Shown: positions 1 through 30,563 of the stretch, piece by piece | Layout: each line of letters begins with the position of its first letter | How positions within the stretch are numbered: position 1 is the stretch's first letter | Assembly (NCBI GenBank): GCA_034670405.1 | Contig: JAXDDX010000018.1 | Span: forward strand, 5,115,501-5,179,500 | Direction: 5' to 3' | Source: Hoplostethus atlanticus | Taxonomy: Eukaryota; Chordata; Actinopteri; Trachichthyiformes; Trachichthyidae | DNA length: 64,000 nt | Notes under the pieces: generated by a model | What the model was told of the DNA's origin: nothing | What the model saw: the letters and a program-made list of their open reading frames with translations, nothing else | The model's database searches: none | Position numbers and translations under genes: made by a program

Positions 1-30563
<30,563 letters not shown>

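Follow-up and report, generated by a model that had tools for sequence, protein, structure and literature searches.

The window, by which we mean the whole 64,000-nt stretch of orange roughy (Hoplostethus atlanticus) DNA analyzed here, contains the 5′ portion of a gene for a ryanodine receptor, encoded on its minus strand. With an approximate human RYR1 sequence as the tblastn guide, we placed RYR exons from position 26010 down to the start of the window; the match to exon 1, near 30.5 kb, was weak (E 0.85). We modeled 65 exon junctions in this gene, 56 of them with local scores of 100 or more. A set of 962 residues from hand-chosen pieces of the window exons scored 1492 bits against RYR1, 1335 against RYR3, and 1304 against RYR2. 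The gene is an RYR1 orthologue, and the same scores rule out its being ryr2 or ryr3. Most of the introns we modeled are typically about 100 nt long, and the interval between exons 3 and 4 is far longer. The positions of these features, and of their counterparts in other RYR genes of the same genome, are collected in Table 1.

Table 1. Location of the ryr1 microexon, its surroundings in the window, and the corresponding exons and candidates in other RYR genes of the genome.
Feature	Position	Strand	Basis
Window, exon 2 or most of it, ends ...TTSNAQ, start not refined	25891..26010	-	tblastn guide, junction modeling
Window, upstream exon, 99 nt, exon 3 by homology, ends ...SNSSLDE	25698..25796	-	RyR2 exon 3 = Asn57-Gly91
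Window, interval between flanking exons, 1166 nt, contains the microexon	24532..25697	-	
Window, microexon acceptor tract, ends in CTGCCAACCGTAG, conserved in second ryr1; TGC beginning 12 nt ahead of the exon	25539..25566	-	within 57-column intron island, E 2.6e-11
Window, 21-nt microexon AVDLDKW, phase 0/0, AG/GT	25518..25538	-	sequence, splice dinucleotides, chance tests, paralogue identity
Window, microexon donor GTATGT, identical in second ryr1	25512..25517	-	
Window, downstream exon, 75 nt	24457..24531	-	tblastn guide, junction modeling
C3 ryr1, 21-nt microexon	L009 2829-2809		
C125 ryr2, 21-nt candidate HVDVEIW	L012 492-472		
C125 ryr2, 15-nt exon KFMMK	L011 4834-4820		
C11 ryr3, 21-nt candidate SADHEQW	L010 3950-3930	-	
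C11 ryr3, 15-nt candidate RLIKR	L010 803-789	-	
C4 ryr3, 21-nt candidate KRGPDRW	L014 1187-1207	+	
C4 ryr3, 15-nt candidate RLIRK	L014 5002-5016	+	

In this long interval an earlier note on the sequence had located a 21-nt exon with an acceptor and a GTATGT donor, in phase 0 on both sides, and its coordinates proved exact. The microexon reads GCAGTCGATTTGGACAAATGG and translates as AVDLDKW; the letters directly before it end in CCAACCGTAG, and the donor follows directly. Both flanking exons end on codon boundaries, so the 21-nt insertion is in frame. The segment has the properties by which we defined a microexon, being no longer than 30 nt, a multiple of three, bounded by AG/GT sites, open in frame, and in phase 0/0. 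Its splice sites are weak: compared with 56 other junctions in this gene, the acceptor stands at the 21st percentile and the donor at the 14th, so skipping is possible. We infer that the AVDLDKW exon is included in mRNA. Judged by titles and the opening of abstracts, none of the open-licence papers listed as matches for RYR microexons, fish RyR1, or RYR gene structure describes it, and the exon may already stand in fish gene-set annotation.

The peptide had been proposed as the counterpart of QVDVEKW in RYR2, which we take to have a 21-nt exon to itself in human RYR2; the exon-like counterpart found here comes from fish ryr2 only. In the solved cardiac protein sequences, QVDVEKW forms residues 92-98 of RyR2 and is followed by KFMMK (residues 99-103). 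Exon 3 of RyR2 encodes Asn57-Gly91 (PMC3990712), so segment 92-98 starts exactly at the junction where the fish ryr1 microexon lies. The two segments share their place after exon 3, their length of seven residues, four of the seven residues themselves, and the final KW. They differ in what comes next, as mammalian RYR2 continues with KFMMK and fish ryr1 lacks an equivalent. Within the 1166-nt interval the only 15-nt candidates with splice sites encode LSDIR, EKCFY, and GGRRC, and a search for a KFMMK relic lacking splice sites gave nothing convincing (best score 12 of a possible 26). The window gene thus has the QVDVEKW-like member of the RYR2-type pair after exon 3 and lacks the 15-nt KFMMK member before the TAQGGGH/SSQGGGH exon.

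The similarity between AVDLDKW and QVDVEKW stands far outside what introns of this kind produce by chance. The intron holds six open AG-21nt-GT candidates; AVDLDKW has a BLOSUM62 score of 28, and the next best scored −1. Over the whole window, the minus strand has 182 such candidates, of which AVDLDKW scored highest (the next scoring 14); it also outscored each of the 177 plus-strand candidates (best 7). None of 4000 introns simulated with a first-order Markov model reached 28 when splice dinucleotides were required (maximum 19), nor did any of 400 when they were not (maximum 27). Even with homology ignored, the exon ranked first among the 26 in-frame mini-exons of 9-45 nt in the window intron by splice-site strength alone. 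A chance match in the intron, to which we assign a negligible probability, is ruled out by the 0/4000 simulations together with the presence of the same exon in a second ryr1 gene, described below; the assignment to QVDVEKW, which also rests on the shared junction, is borne out. Among viral contigs and genome contigs, no relative was confirmed.

We then turned to the genome of this one species (633 Mb in 1161 contigs). A single conserved exon found one match on each of six contigs, indicating at least six RYR genes, and we read the exon 3 to exon 4 introns of the five others (on contigs C3, C125, C11, C4, and C65). The C3 gene encodes the same residue as the window gene at 89.5% of 2212 codons (48 exons) and, by this likeness alone, is classed as a second ryr1. 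It carries a microexon identical at 21/21 nucleotides, with the same GTATGT donor; by splice strength, with homology ignored, this exon ranked 2/97. We found no KFMMK-like exon in the C3 intron. The introns of the two ryr1 genes, 1166 nt long in the window and 3731 nt on C3, shared one significant island, 57 columns long (E 2.6e-11; the next at E 0.044), which covers the acceptor tract, the microexon, and the donor. The exons neighboring the microexon show 76-83% DNA identity between the two genes, and four-fold sites are equal at 409 of 897 positions. Of the seven-codon windows compared, 1900 in all, 991 encode the same peptide in both genes and only 29 have the same nucleotides. The 21/21 identity thus falls within the top 1.5% of such windows, which hints at selection acting on the RNA of the microexon as well as on the protein. 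That the segment is a dead remnant, a former exon now never spliced in, is very improbable: its absence from solved mammalian RYR1 sequences and its weak splice sites would fit such a history, but the full identity and the conserved splice sites stand in introns otherwise without significant similarity, and the frame is open and the sites are intact in both ryr1 genes.

The C125 gene contains both members of the pair. Its exon 3 and 4 peptide favors RyR2 over RYR1 by a narrow margin only (96.9 against 94.3 bits), and it is the KFMMK exon that decides its assignment to ryr2. At the same intron position as in the window gene there is a 21-nt candidate with AG/GT sites, HVDVEIW; unlike in ryr1, a 15-nt exon encoding KFMMK, the same residues as RyR2 99-103, lies later in the same intron, which is 19.7 kb long. 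By splice strength, KFMMK ranked 1/571 and HVDVEIW 4/571, and the similarity of either was reached in none of 60 simulated introns. The gene on C65 is a divergent ryr2: 451 chosen residues gave 751 bits against RYR2, 665 against RYR3, and 636 against the best RYR1-type chain, while its exon 3-5 peptide by itself scored slightly higher against RYR1 (126.3 bits) than against RYR2 (123.2). This copy lies at C65:2067600-2097000 (L015, L020, L021). Its exon 3 to exon 4 intron, of 269 nt, contains neither the 21-nt nor the 15-nt microexon, whereas the C125 ryr2 keeps both; the pair is therefore dispensable in at least one gene.

The genes on C11 (6664690-6728701) and C4 (3237696-3281381) are ryr3-like, with 104.9 bits against RYR3 and 81.4 against RYR1 for the former, and 152.7 and 127.5 for the latter. 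Each has a candidate pair in the expected intron. The 15-nt candidates stand in the place of the ryr2 KFMMK exon and rank high by splice strength (RLIKR 2/193, RLIRK 1/170); the solved RYR3 sequence shows no insert that long at this site. The 21-nt candidates rank lower (SADHEQW 34/193, KRGPDRW 6/170). The similarity of SADHEQW to QVDVEKW was reached in 0/500 simulations and that of KRGPDRW in 14 of 300 simulated introns, while the mutual similarity of RLIKR and RLIRK alone was reached in 47 of 500 simulated pairs. SADHEQW and KRGPDRW form the fourth-best 21-nt pair between the two introns (score 10; best 22). Since a blastn comparison of the two ryr3 introns yielded no significant island, the case for these exons consists of splice rank, peptide similarity, and order. 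On this basis the 15-nt ryr3 exons are probably real and the 21-nt ones possibly so. For comparison, zebrafish is described as having five ryr genes, one of them ryr3 (PMC3262159); the orange roughy genome has at least six, including the two ryr3-like genes.

The pair is absent from the corresponding site in solved mammalian RYR1 and RYR3. Five alignments among the matches listed, all to PDB sequences, show no 7- or 12-residue insertion at the junction in mammalian RYR1, as the earlier note had stated; match lengths against PDB sequences show none in mammalian RYR3 either. The flanking exon sequences equal those of the fish gene. In the insect chains 6lqk and 5y9v, an insertion of such size is likewise absent at the junction. 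Since AVDLDKW is homologous to RyR2 92-98 at the same exon junction, the microexon predates the separation of RYR1 and RYR2, as had been suggested, and the 21/21 paralogue identity agrees with this. The other option then considered, that fish ryr1 regained the exon, is very unlikely, because two ryr1 paralogues share all 21 nucleotides and the ryr2 of the same genome has a counterpart. Furthermore, the presence of the 21-nt counterpart in both ryr1 genes and of candidate pairs in both ryr3 genes points to an inherited exon module that was shortened or dropped gene by gene. The microexon is shared by ryr1 and ryr2 and, given the less secure candidates in both ryr3 genes, it is probably not confined to them.

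We consider it likely that fish ryr1 has a genuine microexon, that this exon belongs to a pair of 21 and 15 nt older than the split of RYR1, RYR2, and RYR3, and that it lengthens a loop of the channel. The common ancestor of the three vertebrate genes would have had both members between exons 3 and 4. RYR2 would have retained both, as QVDVEKW and KFMMK in mammals, and fish ryr3 appears to retain a diverged pair. Fish ryr1 would have kept the 21-nt member only, the 15-nt member having been lost in the ryr1 line, and both would have been lost in the divergent ryr2; in solved mammalian RYR1 and RYR3 sequences neither member is found. A narrower origin is conceivable, in which the exon was born in an ancestor of RYR1 and RYR2 only, or was transferred from one gene to another, the ryr3 candidates being due to chance; the ryr1 exon would then be just as real and work in the same way. 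We regard this as unlikely. It would explain the weak support for the 21-nt ryr3 candidates, the lack of a significant island between the ryr3 introns, and the solved RYR3 sequence, but it would leave to coincidence that both ryr3 introns hold a top-ranked 15-nt candidate with near-identical peptides, that these candidates stand in the expected order behind a 21-nt candidate ending in TGG, and that no simulation matched the similarity of SADHEQW to QVDVEKW.

As for what the exon would do in the protein, the segment had been placed in a loop of the first β-trefoil, and this agrees with the flexible NTD-A region described in three papers (PMC7570887; PMC4220973; PMC9168041). When included, AVDLDKW would lengthen this loop by seven residues. 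Fish RyR1 would thereby have seven of the twelve residues that are present in RyR2 and absent from the mammalian RyR1 at this site. A review describes two flexible helices in the RyR2 loop, of which exon 3 deletion removes one; in arrhythmia patients with this deletion, the remaining helix becomes a β-strand that replaces β-4, and the fold is largely rescued (PMC7570887). As that helix survives the deletion, it would lie after residue 91, in or beside the residues encoded by the microexons. One paper places Met81, which is inside exon 3, in the dynamic helix, and this counts against the link; the same paper reports a crystal structure in which residues 79-106 of RyR2 cannot be seen (PMC4220973). 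The first domain of RyR2 is also reported to have an additional mobile helix with no counterpart in RyR1 (PMC9168041), and it has been proposed that this helix is near the pore-facing interface. Given the mobility of the region and its additional helix in RyR2, the likely effect of the microexon is a small change of N-terminal contacts and of channel activation. Its most likely role would therefore be to modulate these contacts and activation, possibly in a regulated manner, with the fold unchanged.

Some features around the splice sites bear on regulation. UGC beside a weak acceptor is a mark of neural microexons controlled by SRRM3/4. The window ryr1 has a TGC beginning 12 nt upstream of the exon, and the C3 ryr1 one beginning 10 nt upstream; within −20 to −5, 12 of 56 acceptors of the window gene have one. 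The ryr3 15-nt exons have a TGC starting 9-10 nt upstream and the ryr2 15-nt exon one at 16 nt, none was found before the ryr2 21-nt exon, and by eye there is none in the 25 nt before the ryr3 21-nt candidates. In total, five of the eight microexons or candidates have a TGC upstream, against a base rate, over the same 30 nt, of 16 among the 56 acceptors of the window gene. The muscle splicing motif TGCATG is absent from the 150 nt preceding and the 200 nt following each ryr1 microexon, and there is one 27 nt after the ryr2 15-nt exon. These observations would fit a regulated cassette, included in neurons or at certain muscle stages, for example under the SRRM3/4 program, and mostly skipped in muscle, which would yield a tissue-specific RyR1 variant. 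This is compatible with the explanation we prefer and is possible, if on the doubtful side. The weak donor and acceptor, the upstream TGC in both ryr1 genes, the strong nucleotide constraint between them, and the extensive alternate splicing reported for zebrafish ryr genes (PMC6906632) speak for it. Against it, TGC is short and common, no TGCATG is near either ryr1 exon, and the mammalian RyR2 counterpart belongs to the solved cardiac protein sequences. RyR splicing in Drosophila is reported to depend on the SRRM3/4-type (eMIC) program (PMC8797185); what the two cases have in common is that a RyR gene contains a short exon under regulation. According to a later report, none of the microexons in fly and mouse orthologues is conserved (PMC9741552). 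We treat SRRM3/4-type control of the ryr1 microexon as a lead only. Slow and fast muscle use different ryr1 genes, as the expression of zebrafish ryr1a and ryr1b shows (PMC3262159). Since both orange roughy ryr1 paralogues encode the same peptide, the microexon is unlikely to be what separates the slow and fast muscle use of the two genes.

We also put forward, tentatively, a wider scenario, which we rate somewhat short of an even chance. All vertebrate RYRs would derive from one gene with a two-microexon NTD-A cassette whose members were kept, diverged, or dropped in each paralogue. The mobile helix by which RyR2 differs from RyR1 would be a module of ancestral origin under splicing control; a graded series of 0, 7, or 12 residues would still be expressed from fish ryr1 and ryr3; and mammalian RYR1 and RYR3 may hold remnants or rare inclusions that are not annotated. 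The channel N-terminus is a disease hotspot, and genes with 0, 7, or 12 extra residues offer natural variants for testing the role of the loop. If other fish share the AVDLDKW exon, disease models built on fish ryr1 may contain a loop that is missing from human RYR1.

Finally, other parts of the window hold features of their own. On the minus strand, at 14465-15079, an open frame contains an acid-rich stretch whose glutamate is less pure than in mammalian RYR1, and which presumably stands at the position of the poly-glutamate region of the latter. Beyond the 5′ end of ryr1, plus-strand open frames occur at 32682-40755; they resemble what we take to be NFRKB, in which case that gene and ryr1 would be arranged head to head.
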